Shown here: one piece after another, positions 10,307 to 20,870 of the stretch
Numbering within the stretch: position 1 is the first letter of the stretch
Layout of the letters: the number at the start of each line of letters is the position of its first letter
NCBI GenBank assembly: GCA_021413945.1
Contig: JAIOPK010000006.1
Location: 499,636 to 563,635, forward strand
DNA: 64,000 nt
Reading direction: 5' to 3'
Source: Candidatus Uhrbacteria bacterium
Lineage (GTDB): Bacteria; Patescibacteriota; Patescibacteriia; 2-12-FULL-60-25
Position numbers and translations under genes: made by a program
The notes under the pieces: model-generated
What the model was told of the DNA's origin: nothing
What the model saw: only the letters and a program-made list of their open reading frames with translations
Databases searched by the model: none

Positions 10307-11104
10307 CTAAAGCGATGTCGCAGAAGTCCACCGTCCATTGAAGCTACTGATAAGTGTCTTCCGAATATCCTTCCCGAACTGGTCCGGTATCATAACAATC
10401 AAGGATTCTTTGCTTCCAATATCCATGAGACCGTGACCGATAATCAGAAACCGATCCGATGAAAGAATGTAACGGTCGTGGAAATCTCTCGTGGTCGTCA
10501 AGAATAGTTCAACTTTTGTTCCATACTGTTTCTTGAATTGTGACACTGCGGTAGCAAGTGCTGATTTTTTTTCCCGGGAACCTGGCTGTCGTGTGAGGAA
10601 CCTGATTTTCTTGTGGTGCTTCGCGAATTCTTCCAATACGTCAAGGGTATTGACCCCATAGTAGGGGTCGCAAATAAGCAGCTCACCCTTTGGAATCGAC
10701 CTAACAAGCTGACGCAGATTTTGCTGAGCTTCCCTCGGTCGCTTCGGATCAATGCAAACAACATTCAAGAGCCCGTCTTTGCGGAGACTCTTCAAATGAT
10801 TCTCAGCAGAATTACTAATCTTCACGCCCGCGTCGCTTTTACTTTTGATAATTTTCGTGCCTATCGCGGGAGCAATGGCCTTCTTGAGACTGTTCAGCTT
10901 GATAGGAATATCAAAATAGCCAACGAGAATATTCTCGATCTGATCGTAGGTCAGGTATTCAATATCGAAATGATGCTTACTCACATAGAGACACCACAAA
11001 GCCAGACCGAGAAGTTTCTTTACCGGAAGATCATATATAGATGGCACATCCGCCTGCTTCTCGTTCACCTCCCTCCACTTTCTCTTTTCAACAGACATAG
11101 TCAC
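10307..11104 (-). CDS. wHTH-like N-terminus plus phospholipase D-like (HDRY) C-terminal domain protein
   Basis: GELLICDPYYGVNTLDVLEEFAKHHKKIRFLT...DFHDRYILSSDRFLIIGHGLMDIGSKESLIVMIPDQ. Confidence 0.55.
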   Translation of the reverse strand: MTMSVEKRKWREVNEKQADVPSIYDLPVKKLLGLALWCLYVSKHHFDIEYLTYDQIENILVGYFDIPIKLNSLKKAIAPAIGTKIIKSKSDAGVKISNSAENHLKSLRKDGLLNVVCIDPKRPREAQQNLRQLVRSIPKGELLICDPYYGVNTLDVLEEFAKHHKKIRFLTRQPGSREKKSALATAVSQFKKQYGTKVELFLTTTRDFHDRYILSSDRFLIIGHGLMDIGSKESLIVMIPDQFGKDIRKTLISSFNGRWTSATSL

Positions 11105-11550
11105 GAGAAGATTTCATTCCACGCATCGCGTAGATGATAGGTGCCGTGTTTCTTAGAATCAATCCAGCCGCTGGTCTTTGCGGCAGTTGGATACTTGTCA
11201 TTGTATGCGTACCCTAAAAGCTCTTTGGCTTTCATTTTTCCCCAGAGTGGGGTGATAGTGCCGGTTTCGACGTCCGTCCCAGTCTTGCCCTTAGTAAGGT
11301 AGGCAAGAAGTAGCACGAACTTTTTCTGACCGTTCATATTGCGACCATAGGTCTTTACGAAATTCCGTGCATTAAGACTAAAGTCAACATTCGTGACTTT
11401 CGGAGCGGTTGGGATCGACATCTTCCGCGCAGTTGCTCTGGTAGCTGGCAACTCTAGCGCAGTGATGCAGCGGTTCACGATTCCTTGCGCCACTTTTAAT
11501 TGCGCGAGTATTTCTTCGTTCTTCATACGCTTGCTATTTACGTTTCGCAT
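11101..11550 (-). CDS. Small protein with putative winged-helix-like C-terminal module
   Basis: GQKKFVLLLAYLTKGKTG...KELLGYAYNDKYPTAAKTSGWIDSKKHGTYHLRDAWNEIF; 4 nt overlap with next gene. Confidence 0.5.
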   Translation of the reverse strand: MRNVNSKRMKNEEILAQLKVAQGIVNRCITALELPATRATARKMSIPTAPKVTNVDFSLNARNFVKTYGRNMNGQKKFVLLLAYLTKGKTGTDVETGTITPLWGKMKAKELLGYAYNDKYPTAAKTSGWIDSKKHGTYHLRDAWNEIFS

Positions 11551-11869
11551 AAATTCGTACTCCCCCTTCGATGGAGGAAATGAGTGGCCCTTTGCTGGCG
11601 CTTAGGCGGTTCAGCGCGTTGTGTATTACTTGGCGCCGGTATCCGATGTAGCCCATTCCCTTGAGTTCTGCCATCACTTGTGCGGCACTCCTCTGGCGTG
11701 TGAAAAAGCCTTTCGAGATCAATAGAAGAACTCCGCCCTTTGGGCCGGAGAATTCCCCTTCGCTAGCGATCTTCCGTGACGCGGTCTTCCTGGTTAGAAA
11801 AACAGCGCGTTCGAGCCGCACAATCCGTTTTAAAATATCATCGGTGACTTTTTTATTATTGTCCAACAT
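11534..11869 (-). CDS. Small protein with putative winged-helix-like module
   Basis: KGFFTRQRSAAQVMAELKGMGYIGYRRQVIHNALNRLSASKGPLISSIEGGVRIYAKRK. Confidence 0.5.
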   Translation of the reverse strand: MLDNNKKVTDDILKRIVRLERAVFLTRKTASRKIASEGEFSGPKGGVLLLISKGFFTRQRSAAQVMAELKGMGYIGYRRQVIHNALNRLSASKGPLISSIEGGVRIYAKRK

Positions 11870-12230
11870 ATGTCCATCGGTTGCCCTCCCGGATCCGGCG
11901 TAGCTGACGCCTTTTTACAAGGCGGAGCAGCGTCGGGGAGAGGGTGGTTACTGGGTAATGATAGCCGTGTTCCTCAAGTGCTAGTTTTATTGCGCCAAGC
12001 TCTTTGGGCTTCTTAAAAAATCCACCGTCAGTTAGCTCTCCGATCAGGCTCCCGAGAGTAGGTCCGGACGAAGTCGTTCTGCTGCCCTGCTTAGTCTTAC
12101 CAGGGTTTTTTGTAACGGGTCCCGCTGGAATCGATCGGTCGAGGGCAGCCACGAGCTCAGCGACTTCCTTTGAAGTACCTTCAATGGTAATTATCGCCCC
12201 ACTTTTTGAAGTTATTTGTGCTTTTGCCAT
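11856..12230 (-). CDS. Small protein with putative winged-helix-like module
   Basis: GGFFKKPKELGAIKLALEEHGYHYPVTTLSPTLLRLVKRRQLRRIREGNRWTYVGQ. Confidence 0.5.
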   Translation of the reverse strand: MAKAQITSKSGAIITIEGTSKEVAELVAALDRSIPAGPVTKNPGKTKQGSRTTSSGPTLGSLIGELTDGGFFKKPKELGAIKLALEEHGYHYPVTTLSPTLLRLVKRRQLRRIREGNRWTYVGQ

Positions 12231-12504
12231 ATGCAGTTATTCATTTATTCATTTTTTACAAGCCAAGAATAACTGAATAGCCTGTAGGGAGTCAACCCCC
12301 CTTTTTTTGGGTGCTCGGCGAGATCCTTTTTGACCTCGTCTATCCTTACCGCCAGTAGGAACAGAGTCTTATTCCGACTACCAATACTTCACCTTCTCTA
12401 ATAGCCTAAGTCCCTAGTGAGAACACGGTTTCCGAAGCCGTTACTTAGTCACCTGACAACCCATTTTGGTCGCTATGGCCGGAGCCCGTCATGAGTGACC
12501 GTTC

Positions 12505-15441
12505 TCAACCTCGAATTTCTTCCACGATTCGAACCTCCTCTTCCGTCAGTCCATAGAGTTCATACACCAACGCATCAATTTGTTTGTCGGTGGCCGTGAT
12601 TGCATTCTGGAGTGTGATTTTTCCCGATTCCGACGCTGACTCGTGAAGCTCACGCGTATGCGCTAGTCGTCGGTTGGCCAAGTCCACCATCTTCTCATAC
12701 ATAACTTTCTCCGCGGATTTCTTCAAATCAAGTTTCCGCACTGGAATTTGCTCCATATATTGGTAAATGAGGCGGTACCGAAACTCTCCAGCGCGTACGC
12801 CGAACGGGATACTGATGTTGCTAATCGCGAACCAGAACAACCTACTATTGAGAATTCCTAATAAATATTTGTCGCCCGTCCCGAGCGCGTAAATGGTGTT
12901 TGTCGGGTATATACCAGATTCGTCATAAGCGAAGCGTGGGTGCTTGCAGATGTCTGGATAAAGCAGTTTTGGCTGGTTAAAAGTTTCGTAGTAATCGCAC
13001 GGACGAAGTTCCCACCAGAAATCGCCTTGGTCTTGCCGTTCGCGGAGCGCTTTGGTGAACGGCTCAAGATGACTAACGATGGACGGATGTTCTTCACTCA
13101 GCCAAGCCCAAGCTTTAACTTCAGAGGCGCTTGCGCCTGCTTTGCCCATTTGCGAACGAGTCCAGCCAGCTGGCAAGACGATGAGCCACGAATCTGTTGG
13201 CTCGATGAAGTATTCCCGCACATCTTCGCCGCCACGACAGGGATGAATCAAGACCGCACTTGCTTCAGCTTTCGCAACGAGCCTGTCTCGCTGTTCGGTT
13301 GTGACGACGAAGGCTTCGTTCAAGCCGGTTTTGATTCCGTAGAATATCTTCTTGTTGACGTAGCTACCGAGTGGTTCGCCAGCTTTCACGATTTTGGCAA
13401 ACGTCTTCAGTTGCGCTCCGCTTCGCAATGACCACGCATCGCGATTGAACTGCTTTACTGACGCAAAGAAATCCGTCTTGCTCATCTCGGCTAGCACGCT
13501 ATCCGTTTCTAGGGTTCTCACCTTGCTGATTTCCACTTGATCGGATTGCTTTTCTTTCGCCAGCACCGGAATACAAACGTAGGTGTCCTTGGCATCGGCA
13601 AACACGGCCAAGCCCCCGAAATCCACGATGCGAATAAGCGCTGCGTGTTTGAGCAAAGTTTCACGCAGGGCTTCGGCATACGTTGCCCGCAGAAAGCTGC
13701 TGGAAACGATGATGCTGTAACGTCCGCCGGGACGAATCAACTTCACACCCTTTTCCATGAAGTAGGTGAATAGGTCGCCCGTGCCTGAATAGGATTCGTA
13801 ATGCTTTTCGAAATAGTCTTTGGATTCCTTCAGAGATTCTTGCCTGAGATATGGCGGGTTGCCAATAACCGCGTCGAAACCTCCAGACTTTATAATGGAC
13901 TCGAACTGAACTGCCCAATCGAATGCGTGAACGCGCACAAGGTCCTCAGGTTTCTCCGAAAAATCGGAAGCGATGAGTGAGTTGCCGCACTTAATATTGT
14001 CTCCCAAACGCGGAAGCATTCGATCGTTAAAAAGACTCTGCTGTTCTGGTGAGCGTAGCGCCTCCAACATCAGAGACAACTTCGCTAGCTCAACCGCCTG
14101 TCGATCAAGGTCGACGCCATAGATGTGCGCCGTAAGCACACGTTTTCTTTCTTCAAGCGTCAGTTGCCATTGCCCTGCTGGGTCTCGATAAACCTTTTTC
14201 GCTTTCTCATGCTTCTTCGCATCATCGGCGACATACCAATCCCGATACCAATCTGCTAGGAATTTGTACGCCCCGAGCAAGAATGAGCCTGATCCGCAGG
14301 CCGGATCGACTATTGAGAGCTTCTCTATCTGTTTCGGAGTCTTCCCCTCAACCAGCTTCCCTACCGTGTTCTGAACGATGTATTCAACAATATACGTCGG
14401 AGTGTAATAGATGCCACCCGCCTTGCGGACTTCAGGCTTCAATTCCACCTTCGCATGACCGCCCTCGGTCAGGCGTATGACTTTACCAAGAAACTGTTCA
14501 TAGACCTGCCCAAGAATTTCCGCTGGAATGGCATCAAACTTGTATGGGCTTTTCGGGAAATAGAGTTCGGAAATGACATCCTTCAAAACCTTATCATCGA
14601 TTTTAAGATCCGCAATCGAGGCGACCTCGAAAAGATCAGAGTCGTAGCGCTGCTCCGCCTTCTTAAAAAGTTTATAAAGCTTTGCATAATTATCCTCCCC
14701 TTCTATCACCCCTCTCAAGTCCCCCTCATTCGCGATTCCGCGATCCTCGCAAATACGGAGAAACAAAATGCGTCCGATTGTATCCTGAACAATACGGTTT
14801 AAGCGTTCTTCTGAAACCTCGTTGCGGTTGGCAATGTTATGGGCCAACAAATTCCTCCATTTGGAAATATCTTCGAGCAGTTCGCCATCAACGGTCTGCT
14901 GGGCGCGCTTCTTTGTCAGCTTCTCTAAAGATCCTCCAAGGACCTTCTCGCGAGAAAATAAATCCACGATCTCGTCCCACCTGTCAACATATTCATCGAA
15001 CTTTATGCAGTCGATACGAGCAATCCGAGAGGTATCTCCATTCTTTGGCCTTACTGACGTGTCGTAAATTGCGAACTCTTCAAAATCCGTCAGAATACTC
15101 CGCACCGTCTTTGCGCTCCACCCATATCCACGTAACTGGAGGGCAGCGTCCTGATTGCTACAGATATTCAATGAAGGCTTTTTAGCCTCAACGAAGAACC
15201 TAATCTTCTTATCCAAGTAGAAACCGAAATCCGGAGCTTTTCCGTGAACGAGCTTCTCGTAATGAACATCACGGTCTGCCCCCTTTGCCAGCTTGTTCTC
15301 CATATCCCAACCCAAAACCTCAAAAAACGGGTTGAGAAACTCAGTCCTTAGCTGTTCCTCGTTATACTCGCTGGATTGGTAGTAATCGAAGTGGAGTTTG
15401 AACTTATCTACAAGCTCCACGATACGTTGCGGTGCGGGCAT
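12505..15441 (-). CDS. Type IIG (Eco57I-like) restriction-modification enzyme
   Basis: N-terminal APDFGFYLDKKIRFFVEAKKPS (PD-(D/E)XK-like), motif I DPACGSGSFLLGAY, motif IV NPPYLRQ; C-terminal specificity-like region. Confidence 0.85.
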   Translation of the reverse strand: MPAPQRIVELVDKFKLHFDYYQSSEYNEEQLRTEFLNPFFEVLGWDMENKLAKGADRDVHYEKLVHGKAPDFGFYLDKKIRFFVEAKKPSLNICSNQDAALQLRGYGWSAKTVRSILTDFEEFAIYDTSVRPKNGDTSRIARIDCIKFDEYVDRWDEIVDLFSREKVLGGSLEKLTKKRAQQTVDGELLEDISKWRNLLAHNIANRNEVSEERLNRIVQDTIGRILFLRICEDRGIANEGDLRGVIEGEDNYAKLYKLFKKAEQRYDSDLFEVASIADLKIDDKVLKDVISELYFPKSPYKFDAIPAEILGQVYEQFLGKVIRLTEGGHAKVELKPEVRKAGGIYYTPTYIVEYIVQNTVGKLVEGKTPKQIEKLSIVDPACGSGSFLLGAYKFLADWYRDWYVADDAKKHEKAKKVYRDPAGQWQLTLEERKRVLTAHIYGVDLDRQAVELAKLSLMLEALRSPEQQSLFNDRMLPRLGDNIKCGNSLIASDFSEKPEDLVRVHAFDWAVQFESIIKSGGFDAVIGNPPYLRQESLKESKDYFEKHYESYSGTGDLFTYFMEKGVKLIRPGGRYSIIVSSSFLRATYAEALRETLLKHAALIRIVDFGGLAVFADAKDTYVCIPVLAKEKQSDQVEISKVRTLETDSVLAEMSKTDFFASVKQFNRDAWSLRSGAQLKTFAKIVKAGEPLGSYVNKKIFYGIKTGLNEAFVVTTEQRDRLVAKAEASAVLIHPCRGGEDVREYFIEPTDSWLIVLPAGWTRSQMGKAGASASEVKAWAWLSEEHPSIVSHLEPFTKALRERQDQGDFWWELRPCDYYETFNQPKLLYPDICKHPRFAYDESGIYPTNTIYALGTGDKYLLGILNSRLFWFAISNISIPFGVRAGEFRYRLIYQYMEQIPVRKLDLKKSAEKVMYEKMVDLANRRLAHTRELHESASESGKITLQNAITATDKQIDALVYELYGLTEEEVRIVEEIRG

Positions 15442-15750: not shown

Positions 15751-18700
15751 TCAGGGCGTGTACAAATAGGCGTCCATGACCCCGTTCATGCCGGATTTGA
15801 TCGCCATACGCTGGAGTGCGTGGAAGTTTTTGAGGAGCAGGGTGATGTTGAGCGGGATGCGTACGCCCCGGCGCTTGATCGCCGTCATGGCTCGCAAACC
15901 CTCCTGCCAGTCATGCCGCGAAGATGCGTCGGCCAAACGATGGACTTCAAGGCGCGTTTGCTCGTCCATGACTCCTCCGCTCTCGGCGACGAAGCCGGCC
16001 AACATCTCTTCCTTGGCCGATATGTCGGCAAACGGATTGATGAACTGGGAAACGATCACCCGTTCCTGCGGAGACAAATGAAGAAAGAAGTTGCGGTCGT
16101 AAACGGCGATCTCTCCTTTTGGCGTTACGGAGAAGTTGCCGATATGGATATCCGAAAGCGCCTGCCCATGGGCAATCTGCTCGATGTAACTCTTGGTAAT
16201 CACGCTGATCACCTGTCGCATGTCGTGACCTTTTTTCTCCAATTGCTTCCACTGCGTCAAGTTTGTTCCCGGGATATACTCCTCTCTTGAGAAATACGCG
16301 TTCTCCGGTCCGCGTGAACGCGGAATGCGCAGACCATACCGATGACCTTCCGGTTTATATCCTTGATGGCGTTCGAAGAAGCGCTTGTCGTTTTCCAAGA
16401 AGTTTTCAAACGCGACATCCTTGGCGATCCATTCCTTCATATCGTCGAGCAAAACATTGGCTGACTCATATCCCCCGCCGTGATTTTTCGCGAGAGATCC
16501 GATCACATCTTTGGCGAGTCCATACATCCCATCAATGTGATGCTTGATGTTTGGATTCAATATTTTGACTACTTCTTTTCTGCCGTCCGTCGCCTCGACT
16601 TCATAAACCGTAACGATCGAGCCGCCGCCGATGCGCTTCCCAAATCGAGCGATCTCATCCCACATCGTGGGCCATTCACGCTCCATGGTGAGTAACGCCG
16701 ATATCTTTGATTGACCTTTTGCCTGATCAAAAACCTCATTGAATTCTTGAGCGTATTTTTCCGGAATGTCCGCCGCGAGCGGAAGGTTCTGTAAAAATCG
16801 GACGCCCATCGCCGACATGCGCTGAACCGTGTCTTTTACAAAGCGGAGCGGCGTCATCGCTTCAAAGACTTCCGGTTTTCCGGCGCCCAACAAATCGTAA
16901 GCGATACGTTGGGAATATTCGCGATAGGCAAAACGGTAGCGATCCATGTTTGACAGGGCGCCTGCGGGAACAGACTTCCAATCTACCAATTTTTTTGTCT
17001 TAACCAGCAGTGCGGATTCGGGACTAATCCTCTCCGTATCATCCAGCGTCAACCATTCGGATGCTTGAGAACGTCTCTTCGGCGGGCGGGCGATGCGCTC
17101 CCCAAGGCTTCCCTGAAAGGCAATGTACAACAGCTCCCAATCTTTGACGTCAACCAGTCCTCCGCGTACTCGTTCCAGCACCTGCTCCAAATCGTTCTCC
17201 CCTTCCGTTGGTTTAATCCATTCCTTGAACAGCGACTCGAGGAAAATTTTGCGTCTCTGCGGATCCGGGAGCAAACCTCCCTCTGATGTCAGGATCTTGC
17301 GGAGCAAGGCATGCCGGCCGACCGGACCAATCGAGTAGATCGTGCGCAAGGCGCTTTCGCAATCGGAGACAATAGCGGCCGCCTCGACCTCTTCTCCAAA
17401 TTTTTGACTGTACTGGGGCCCGGATACCACTCTGTTAAAAATCACTTTGCGCAATTCCGTATCGTCCTCCGACGATTTGAGCAAGGCAAGCATGGTCTTA
17501 ACGATTTCCCTGGGTTCGGTGTGCCGAAAATCTTTTTCGAGAAGTAAGCCGGCTCCAATGCTCGACGATCCTTCCTTCAGCATTTCGTCGAGCTGTCCTT
17601 CTACGCGCTTCTTCACGAGTGTAAACGTTTCTTGCGAGTCGACTTGTTCATCCAAAAAACGTTCGCGCAAATTGAAATCCGTCACGCCGCTTCCACGCCC
17701 TTCCGGAAAGAGCGTGTCGAGTTTTTCCACAAAACCAACGGAAGACCAGCGGTCATTCAGTAGGCGCTTCTCCCATTGATCCCGTAGGGCCGGGTCGGGA
17801 ACGATCGAGACGAGCTCGATACCTTCCGCCAAGCTTAGCTTTTTAAATTCGCCCTTTTTATACATCAAAACCAAACGTTCCAAGATCGGCCCCGTTTCAA
17901 TCGAGCGCCGTACAAATTCTTCACGGGCCCGATAATTCGCGTCGCCTTCCAGTCGGACAACCTCTTTAGATAGCGCCTGCGGATCTTCAATAGAAAGAAG
18001 GTGGCGTACCGCGATTCGCGTGCGCATCACGTCCTCATATTCCTCTTGAAGCGATTGTTCAAAGTCTTGAGGCAGTGTCCCCCACGCGACATCGAGTTTT
18101 GTAAAATCGGGATCCAGTCTCTTGATCAGCCTCGTCGCTCGGTCGCGATCCAAGCGCCCGAGCAAGTTTATGTGTTGAACTTCTTTTTCCAAATACTTGG
18201 CCTGTTTATTAAACTCCGGATCTTCTTTGTTATCCATTTTGTAGCCGTATTCCGGATCCTCATCCGATATTTCCTGCGTAGCCAGCACCCTCACATTCTC
18301 CAATCCGTTCAGCCAATAGTAAAGAAAGAGCGCTTCTTCCTTTTCCGGGAGCGGAATTGAATGACATTCCGGTAGAGCTAGCGCCGTCTTCAACCATTCA
18401 TACCCCGCCGTCGTCAGTAGTCGTATCTTGCGATCCGCGATCTCCGCCTGTTCAAAATTGCCTTTCTGGGTTTTTGATGACACGTATTCATTAACCTTTA
18501 AAAACGTGCTCCGCAGATGGCTCGCGAGGTCTTCTACCTGTACGGACTCTTTGTTCTCCAGAAATTCTGCCGCGAGCGCGCGGGCAAGATTTTTTGCTTT
18601 CTGAAAATCCTTGAGATGCTCGGTCTTGGTTATCCAATCCCGAACCTCCTTGTCTTGTATCTGCTCGACGGACAACGGTTTGTTCTTCTCGATGAGAGCC

Positions 18701-20103
18701 TCCTTGGGCAATTCCAGCGTTTCGCGCAGCGAATCTATCACCTGCTCGTTCTTTGAGGTGTGCACGGAATATGCCTTCGACCAATCCGTAAGAATCGGTG
18801 CCCAGGCCTTTACCGCATCAACTTTTGTCTCCATGTCCGATGAGGCCATCCCATACTTCATTCCCGCCTGAAAGCCGAACTGGGATCTTGAAGCGTACGG
18901 GTAGGCGCGCTCATCGAGAATGCGCTTGACCTCTCCTTGAACCCTCGGGTCTGCCGGCCACGGTTTTGTAGCCGCTTCCAAAACTTCCGGAGCGGCGATA
19001 GCCTCTGTTGGACGCACTTCCGCCGTGCGTTTGGCGTTCTTTACAGGTTTGGGACCGACTTGGATCAGGCCGTTCTTGATATCCATTCCGCAGACCAGCG
19101 AAATAAGTGCTGGTGCAAGCTCGACCTGCAGACGTTCCTCGGCTGGAATCTTTTTAACGAACCGCTCGATAAGCTTTCGTAAGACGGCGACATCTTCTTT
19201 TTCAACCGTCTCGCTCGTCCGGAGAAGTTTTCCGCTCAATTTCTCAATCGCGATCGACACCATATCATCCGGCAGCCGCTCCAATGCCTGAAGCTGACGT
19301 TCGCGCGATTCCTTGACCGACTCGGGATTTGAATAAAGGAGTGAAGGACGCGACGCGACATCCCGATACGAGTAGATTTTCTTATCCTCACTGATCGTTT
19401 TTCTTATGTCTTCCGAGATTGGCGTAAGCGGCTGCGAGGTAGACGGCAAGTGCACGGCAAATGTCGTCTCGGCGATATTCAACGCGCGGTCGCGGCTTGT
19501 CCCGTGGGAAACCGTTTTTGACGGATCGCGTTCAAACATCCGTTCAAGGAGCTGTTTGTAGCCCATTGGATTTTCGCCGGCTTCATCCATCCATTTCACG
19601 GCGCCTCTCAAATCGGCGTCATACTCGTGCATGCGCTCGAGACTCAACGACTGAAGATAGTTATGGATCGCTCCCGATACATCCGGTTTCGGCCCCTCGA
19701 TCTTTCCGGCGGCTATTTGTTTTTTCTCTCTTTGCTTGGCGTTATGTGTTTTTTGGACGTGGACCAGTTCATGTGCGATCACGCCCAACAGCGCTTGTTC
19801 CGTTTGCGCCCGTTCCACCAAGCGCGAGGCAACAAGAAGCGTACCGTCCGGGAAGGCTACGGCATTCATCTCGTGCCAATCCGGCGCAACCTGTACATGG
19901 GGTTCAAGCCCGATCTTGTTCAGACGGTCTGCGACAGATTGGACGTAATTTTGTACCGGGTGATTTTCCGGATAGGCGCCATATTCAAATTCAAAACGTT
20001 TGCGTTCAAGCGCAACCGTACGGCGAAGCCCTTCTCGTTCCGAACGTTCCGGCTTGGGAGAGACATTCGGTGTTTGAATCGGCCCTAGAGCCTCCTTTGA
20101 CAT
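15751..20103 (-). CDS. Giant fusion: N-terminal M48-like metallopeptidase, long helical middle, C-terminal UbiB/ABC1-like kinase
   Basis: ALLGVIAHELVHVQKTHN (HExxH) near N-terminus; C-terminal IGGGSIVTVYEVEATDGRKEVVKILNPNI ... QALSDIHIGNFSVTPKGEIAVYDRN. Confidence 0.75.
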   Translation of the reverse strand: MSKEALGPIQTPNVSPKPERSEREGLRRTVALERKRFEFEYGAYPENHPVQNYVQSVADRLNKIGLEPHVQVAPDWHEMNAVAFPDGTLLVASRLVERAQTEQALLGVIAHELVHVQKTHNAKQREKKQIAAGKIEGPKPDVSGAIHNYLQSLSLERMHEYDADLRGAVKWMDEAGENPMGYKQLLERMFERDPSKTVSHGTSRDRALNIAETTFAVHLPSTSQPLTPISEDIRKTISEDKKIYSYRDVASRPSLLYSNPESVKESRERQLQALERLPDDMVSIAIEKLSGKLLRTSETVEKEDVAVLRKLIERFVKKIPAEERLQVELAPALISLVCGMDIKNGLIQVGPKPVKNAKRTAEVRPTEAIAAPEVLEAATKPWPADPRVQGEVKRILDERAYPYASRSQFGFQAGMKYGMASSDMETKVDAVKAWAPILTDWSKAYSVHTSKNEQVIDSLRETLELPKEALIEKNKPLSVEQIQDKEVRDWITKTEHLKDFQKAKNLARALAAEFLENKESVQVEDLASHLRSTFLKVNEYVSSKTQKGNFEQAEIADRKIRLLTTAGYEWLKTALALPECHSIPLPEKEEALFLYYWLNGLENVRVLATQEISDEDPEYGYKMDNKEDPEFNKQAKYLEKEVQHINLLGRLDRDRATRLIKRLDPDFTKLDVAWGTLPQDFEQSLQEEYEDVMRTRIAVRHLLSIEDPQALSKEVVRLEGDANYRAREEFVRRSIETGPILERLVLMYKKGEFKKLSLAEGIELVSIVPDPALRDQWEKRLLNDRWSSVGFVEKLDTLFPEGRGSGVTDFNLRERFLDEQVDSQETFTLVKKRVEGQLDEMLKEGSSSIGAGLLLEKDFRHTEPREIVKTMLALLKSSEDDTELRKVIFNRVVSGPQYSQKFGEEVEAAAIVSDCESALRTIYSIGPVGRHALLRKILTSEGGLLPDPQRRKIFLESLFKEWIKPTEGENDLEQVLERVRGGLVDVKDWELLYIAFQGSLGERIARPPKRRSQASEWLTLDDTERISPESALLVKTKKLVDWKSVPAGALSNMDRYRFAYREYSQRIAYDLLGAGKPEVFEAMTPLRFVKDTVQRMSAMGVRFLQNLPLAADIPEKYAQEFNEVFDQAKGQSKISALLTMEREWPTMWDEIARFGKRIGGGSIVTVYEVEATDGRKEVVKILNPNIKHHIDGMYGLAKDVIGSLAKNHGGGYESANVLLDDMKEWIAKDVAFENFLENDKRFFERHQGYKPEGHRYGLRIPRSRGPENAYFSREEYIPGTNLTQWKQLEKKGHDMRQVISVITKSYIEQIAHGQALSDIHIGNFSVTPKGEIAVYDRNFFLHLSPQERVIVSQFINPFADISAKEEMLAGFVAESGGVMDEQTRLEVHRLADASSRHDWQEGLRAMTAIKRRGVRIPLNITLLLKNFHALQRMAIKSGMNGVMDAYLYTP

Positions 20104-20123
20104 GAGGAAATAGTACCACGGAA

Positions 20124-20870
20124 TCACGCTTCAGCCCTGCCCCTTCTGCCCGTAATGATCTTGAGCGCTTGCGGCCTCACCCCGAGCTCCAGCGTCTCCC
20201 CTTCCAACGGCGCGCCGTCGACCATGCAGGAGCCGGCGACGGTACGTTCGAGACGCGCTTCCTTGAACTGCAAATGCGTTTGATCCGACGACTCCTTCTT
20301 CCAAGTGAAACGACGACGGTCGGGCGGTGGAAGAATAAAAACATCGAGCTTGCCGTCATGGGCGTCGCTATCGACTCCAAGATTTCTGATGACGAGTGAC
20401 CCTCCCGGAGGCGGCGCGATCTTGAATTGTTTGTCGACGTGAAGCGTGATGCCGGGGCCGTCGGCGACGAGTTCCGATAAAAATGCCCGAGTACCGACGA
20501 GGCCGAGGTCGACGGTCTCGTGAAAGCGGGCCATGAGCGTATCGACCGATGCGATACCCTTGGGAATGCCGAGACCTTTTGCCACGGGTCCGTCATCGAG
20601 CAGCGAAACAAATCCGATCATCGGATTGGCATCACCGAGCGCGCCGATCGCCGTGAACAGGGTTTTGTCATCGCCGACGACAACAAGGGTTTGCGCGCCG
20701 GAGTGCATCAAGTCGGCGACAATGTCTCGGGCATGACGAAACAACGCAAATTTACCGACGCGGCCGTTCATGCCACGGCGCGAAATCTCGGCCTCGAACC
20801 GCGAAACTTCCCGGTCGTATTTCCGGTCATTCAGCCGCTCGTCGTAGAGATAAGCGTATCCGGACAACAC
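20124..20870 (-). CDS. Divergent diacylglycerol/lipid kinase-like protein
   Basis: AQTLVVVGDDKTLFTAIGALGDANPMIGFVSL...GIPKGI; C-terminal VDGAPLEGETLELGVRPQALKII. Confidence 0.6.
   Translation of the reverse strand: MLSGYAYLYDERLNDRKYDREVSRFEAEISRRGMNGRVGKFALFRHARDIVADLMHSGAQTLVVVGDDKTLFTAIGALGDANPMIGFVSLLDDGPVAKGLGIPKGIASVDTLMARFHETVDLGLVGTRAFLSELVADGPGITLHVDKQFKIAPPPGGSLVIRNLGVDSDAHDGKLDVFILPPPDRRRFTWKKESSDQTHLQFKEARLERTVAGSCMVDGAPLEGETLELGVRPQALKIITGRRGRAEA

Follow-up and report, generated by a model that had tools for sequence, protein, structure and literature searches.

The window analysed here, a stretch of 64,000 nucleotides from a Candidatus Uhrbacteria contig, carries four short overlapping genes next to a type IIG restriction-modification (R-M) gene, raising the question of whether they encode a defence module and, if so, of which kind. 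An association of HEPN toxins with R-M systems is well established, and release of such toxins upon R-M failure has been argued (PMC3710099). A preliminary description of this DNA had seen in the four genes a possible undescribed defence cassette of small winged-helix (wHTH) proteins ending in a PLD-like effector. We found no description of this gene set in open-access papers on the combination of HEPN, wHTH, PLD and R-M.

Gene organization

The four co-directional reading frames of the preliminary description were recovered at their exact positions on the minus strand: g1 (11856..12230, 124 aa), g2 (11534..11869, 111 aa), g3 (11101..11550, 149 aa) and g4 (10307..11104, 265 aa), the effector candidate, which starts with GTG and has an in-frame ATG at 11098. 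They overlap by 14 (g1/g2), 17 (g2/g3) and 4 bp (g3/g4). The co-directional gene upstream of g1 (12505..15441, minus strand) is confirmed as a type IIG R-M enzyme (PADLOC REase_MTase_IIG, E=1.5e-198; Pfam Eco57I, 9.6e-41), and its distance of 274 bp places the cassette where an R-M accessory toxin of the PrrC/RloC type is expected. The 274-bp intergenic region (12231..12504, minus strand) contains a weak promoter-like match just upstream of g1 (12295-12266); the number of such matches in the region is not clearly above that in shuffled sequences and gives no evidence of function.

Families and fold of the three small proteins

The g1 protein comprises an N-terminal beta-beta-alpha unit (AKAxI...IEGTxxEVAxLV), a linker and a winged-helix-like domain (GFFKKPKEL...GYHYPVTTLSPTLLRLV...W.YV), and g2 a basic N-terminal segment followed by a winged-helix-like domain homologous to that of g1. 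The pattern shared by the two, previously noticed by eye, proved real. BLASTP between the two proteins reaches only marginal significance (E=6e-4), but profile-profile comparison with hhalign gives 98.5% probability (E=2e-15), by which measure g1 and g2 are one family. A homologue of g2 from the Kazan group shares 39% identity with it (E=1e-20). The g3 protein, to which the likeness had been extended by eye, is winged-helix-like as judged by its sequence (GPKKFVLLLAYLTKG...W.KM..K.LLG...AK..GWVDSKK.G.Y.L) and belongs to a separate family from g1/g2. Its C-terminal half corresponds to the N-terminal domain of PLD effectors found at other loci (97.9%, E=5e-13).

An AlphaFold2 model of g1, computed with nine homologues, shows the order EE-H, a low-confidence linker, then HHH-EE, with block pLDDT values of about 50-80 once the linker is left aside. 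The H-H-H-E-E order is that expected of a winged helix, and this one model of moderate confidence makes the wHTH a candidate fold for g1; g2 would be winged-helix-like by homology. Foldseek with the g1 model returned no usable match, and g1-g3 have no convincing model in Pfam, NCBIfam, PADLOC 2.0 or PHROGs. Profile searches of the PDB with the g1, g3, PLD and HEPN alignments likewise gave no convincing relatives, the g1 alignment matching Hef at E=0.0015. Two further sets of candidates were rejected. A g3-only search of the phylum produced three matches at E~1e-3, of which the two inspected were unrelated ORFs and were attributed to chance, and a g1 match in genome G036 (E=0.006) fell within an unrelated ORF.

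The N-terminal unit of g1 can be regarded as a module of its own, because at another locus (L033, 1423-1968) it precedes another kind of C-terminal domain (profile E=6e-6 over residues 1-51).

The fourth gene and its PLD-like domain

Residues ~114-263 of g4 appear to form a single-copy PLD-like domain of the MIT_C/PDC-S05 kind, in support of the PLD-like reading of this gene. PADLOC PDC-S05 matches residues 124-242 with E=5.2e-9, over profile positions 181-290 of 306 only and with no match over the N-terminal half of g4; a homologue in genome G129 shares 37% identity (E=9e-27). When g4 was checked for membership of a known non-defence family, it was thus a candidate defence profile that the PLD domain matched. 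The structural model of g4 is poor (pLDDT <50 in the N-terminal segment and about 53-73 in the PLD core), and Foldseek against the PDB with this model ranked the MITD1 PLD-like domain first, second, third and fifth (prob 0.99). Pfam gave MIT_C (PF16565) and PLDc_2, both below threshold, and no MIT domain was detected. Profile similarity extends to haloarchaeal and ORF6N/RhuM PLD proteins. A viral Foldseek search yielded weak, low-confidence matches only, and g4-only searches of genome contigs, viral contigs and phages found none.

The HDRY motif noted earlier is present and has to be read as HDRYILSSD, an HxR whose Asp stands one position further along than in the HxRx4D...GxS kept by the PLD relatives of g4, and with Arg in place of the Lys of the superfamily (HKD) reference motif, HxKx4D...GS. 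We consider the domain a candidate nuclease. On a contrary reading the assembly would be non-catalytic, its PLD-like domain serving to bind DNA, a nucleotide or a membrane and the complex regulating or assisting the R-M system. The solved structure closest to the PLD half of g4, MITD1, binds membranes and is not known to be catalytic, and the displaced Asp and the Lys-to-Arg change in g4 point the same way. Retention of HxRx4D and GxS in the relatives, alignment of the PLD profile with a true HKD protein (E=3e-6) and the occupation of the same slot by HEPN-like proteins at other loci argue against it, and we regard a non-catalytic assembly as decidedly unlikely.

The N-terminal part of g4 had been described as resembling g1-g3. 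Profile comparisons of residues 1-110 with g3 and with the C-terminal domain of the HEPN-family effectors were negative, and we therefore leave this stretch unassigned and make no claim of an N-terminal wHTH in g4.

Conservation of gene order and exchange of the fourth gene

A scan with the g1 alignment, using one genome per species, identified 11 loci, to which a class-level profile search added more. The 491 ORFs of the locus neighbourhoods were re-scored with profiles built in this analysis; many of these ORFs also went into the profiles, and their E-values are inflated accordingly. Rather than being scattered, homologues were found as g1-g2-g3 in this order in five other lineages, namely L029 (Nitrospirae), L032 and L037 (Gammaproteobacteria), L035 (Vogelbacteria) and L036 (Parcubacteria). 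Identity to the window genes in these operons is 46-59% for g1, 38-46% for g2 and 37-46% for g3, and pairwise z-scores against shuffled sequences are 32-51, 21-30 and 38-47, respectively. The four genes are real and conserved as a unit. Gene 4 of L029, L032, L035 and L037 scores only -1.0 to 0.5 against g4 and is HEPN-like instead, whereas g1-g3 score 21-51, so that the effector is swapped at a fixed position; in L036 the contig edge precedes gene 4. The HEPN-like gene 4 proteins of these operons share a conserved C-terminal domain (alignment A8), to which the HEPN label applies weakly by sequence (PF05168 in 3/7 members, best E=0.01). A cassette with a PLD-like effector, as first proposed, is supported for the window; the exchangeability of the effector slot, and its use by a HEPN-like protein elsewhere, had been missed. 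At a Kazan-group locus (L022, 10021-15392) tandem g1/g2-like genes are followed by two further small genes, a HEPN-like effector, a SIR2-like protein and a Tsp45I R-M pair.

PLD versions of the module occur elsewhere as domain fusions. Four loci (L028, L048, L049 and L051) combine g1/g2-like genes or domains with a g3-like-PLD fusion, the L028 effector matching PDC-S05 at E=7e-18, and L028 and L050 have a Ymh-HEPN domain (Pfam E about 1e-21) with a fused g1/g2-like one. Starting instead from the PLD effectors, a search of 257 genomes of the class gave full-length matches to the N-terminal domain plus PLD in G000, G290, G482 and G496, all four beside g1/g2/g3-like genes. These four proteins are themselves members of the searching profile, and the search therefore shows only that it recovered no additional full-length copy lacking them. 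The other PLD matches in the 257 genomes were one of the ORF6N type (G421), one with another N-terminal domain (G114) and one double-HKD protein (G531). Since HEPN-like genes take the fourth position elsewhere and g3-like domains are fused to PLD at other loci, the module is one of small winged-helix-like genes whose effector is interchangeable and may be HEPN-like, Ymh-HEPN or PLD. The fusions of g1/g2/g3-like domains to effectors further suggest that the proteins act in one complex.

Genes of this kind might also belong to the regulatory or replication repertoire of mobile elements (phage, ICE) and have no role in defence. Relatives of the PLD protein are found in ORF6N/RhuM-PLD proteins and on haloarchaeal plasmids, which carry integrase/replication genes, and prophage-like genes lie near L035. 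Scans of 50,697 phage records and of IMG/VR found no homologue of g1 or g4, however, and R-M genes are the commonest neighbours, leaving this origin very improbable in our judgement. Among plasmids and phages, the HEPN, g3 and PLD relatives used as queries recovered only one haloarchaeal HEPN-like homologue, a Natronomonas pharaonis plasmid PL131 protein (L083, 4974-5846; HEPN-like domain E=2e-22, RNNRDSVH motif), which has no g1-g3 neighbours.

Linkage to restriction-modification genes

R-M genes adjoin 8 of the 17 loci with usable flanks, the remaining 9 being without an adjacent R-M gene. The linked loci are the window (IIG), L022 (Tsp45I), L025 (MTase and ResIII helicase), L031 and L052 (type I), L032 (HsdS), and L036 and L037 (type III). 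In ten genomes with counts of N6-MTase loci, 4 adjacencies were seen against 0.15 expected (P~8e-6, a value to be read with the possible shared ancestry of the loci in mind). The N6-MTase loci number none to two per genome, counted for two MTase families with the counts merged by hand. Linkage to R-M genes is above chance in the ten genomes tested.

A toxin-antitoxin or addiction unit, in which the small winged-helix proteins would be antitoxins or repressors of the effector and would stabilise the R-M island with no phage sensing, is another reading. In keeping with such a unit, the small genes are translationally coupled and precede a toxin-like gene, and a serine recombinase or transposase lies near some relatives. 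Three conserved small proteins exceed what the usual toxin-antitoxin pair needs, however, and effector swapping together with R-M association fits defence at least equally; on balance we find such a unit unlikely.

A further family of small proteins (130-133 aa), with no Pfam match, lies by R-M genes in L025 (7330-7728) and L052 (4635-5024) and also adjoins a PLD or winged-helix-like gene.

Comparison with known systems

The closest listed system, the PADLOC candidate PDC-S05, shares a single C-terminal PLD-like domain with g4; its N-terminal half is unmatched, and g4 is preceded by three small winged-helix-like genes, whereas PDC-S05 is, as we take from its name, a single-gene candidate. PLD domains akin to it are also found following ORF6N/RhuM domains. 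MIT_C (PF16565)/MITD1 resembles g4 in predicted fold, as the top Foldseek match in the PDB, and in a weak Pfam match, but that match is below the Pfam cut-off, no MIT domain was detected in g4 and its relatives keep HxRx4D. PrrC/RloC and Ymh-paraMORC (PMC3710099) are alike in having a candidate nucleic-acid-attacking effector by R-M genes, and Ymh-HEPN recurs in L028 and L050. Those systems use ABC or GHKL ATPases, whereas no ATPase domain was matched in g1-g4, which have three winged-helix-like proteins instead and do not make up an ATPase-fused anticodon nuclease. Effector domains of the relatives also match Menshen NsnC (E=1.5e-6), PD-Lambda-3_B (5e-9) and Aga_HEPN, weakly to moderately; the locus proteins scanned gave no match to any other component of these three systems. 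NsnA and NsnB have no match in g1-g4, where g4 matches NsnC weakly (E=0.017), and neither is among the best 25 matches listed for the IIG gene.

Proposed function

Building on the directly observed conserved operon, effector swap, g3-like-PLD fusions and R-M linkage, we propose a horizontally spread, R-M-associated conflict module in which g1-g3 restrain an interchangeable effector, a reading to which we give an even chance. The g1-g3 proteins would form a DNA-binding, sensing complex that keeps the C-terminal effector in check, this slot being filled by a PLD-like phosphodiesterase here and by HEPN-like RNases elsewhere. Breach of the partner R-M system, or binding of foreign DNA, may cause the complex to free the effector, a proposal that follows the argument made for R-M-linked HEPN toxins (PMC3710099). 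The freed effector could then cut nucleic acid and stop the cell or the invader, as in abortive infection. We regard the module as most likely a partner of R-M systems that would work by abortive infection or in a toxin-antitoxin-like manner.

As to novelty, an R-M-associated toxin or abortive-infection module is of a known kind, and it is the set of small accessory proteins that appears undescribed. The proposal of an undescribed defence cassette gains from the conservation, the R-M linkage and the lack of library models for g1-g3, and loses the wHTH of g4. A new type of defence is in our estimate plausible, at somewhat less than an even chance: three small winged-helix proteins would form a complex that senses DNA with no ATPase and protects R-M systems, it could be equipped with effectors unrelated to one another (HEPN-like, Ymh-HEPN or PLD nuclease), and it would have spread over Patescibacteria, Nitrospirae, Proteobacteria and Acidobacteria. 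If true, it would mean a defence architecture that senses through small winged-helix proteins with no ATPase, and a concrete back-up of R-M in candidate-phylum bacteria with tiny genomes, whose anti-viral repertoire is poorly known. Its fixed gene order and swapped effector make the module directly testable, since one g1-g3 set is paired with two kinds of effector, among others in Gammaproteobacteria, which are nearer to laboratory hosts.

Genomic surroundings

No further g1/g2 copies were found in the genome of the window (G000) by g1/g2 profile search; the genome has a second R-M methylase, of the Eco57I kind (G000:C16:11391-12413). In an empty-site test, the 529-aa gene downstream of the island was kept in 29/30 family genomes, and the protein upstream of it (15751-20127, minus strand) was not beside the 529-aa gene in the relatives retrieved. 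This upstream protein of 1458 aa, with its reading frame at 15754-20127, pairs an N-terminal M48 metallopeptidase with a C-terminal ABC1/UbiB-like atypical kinase, an unusual combination.
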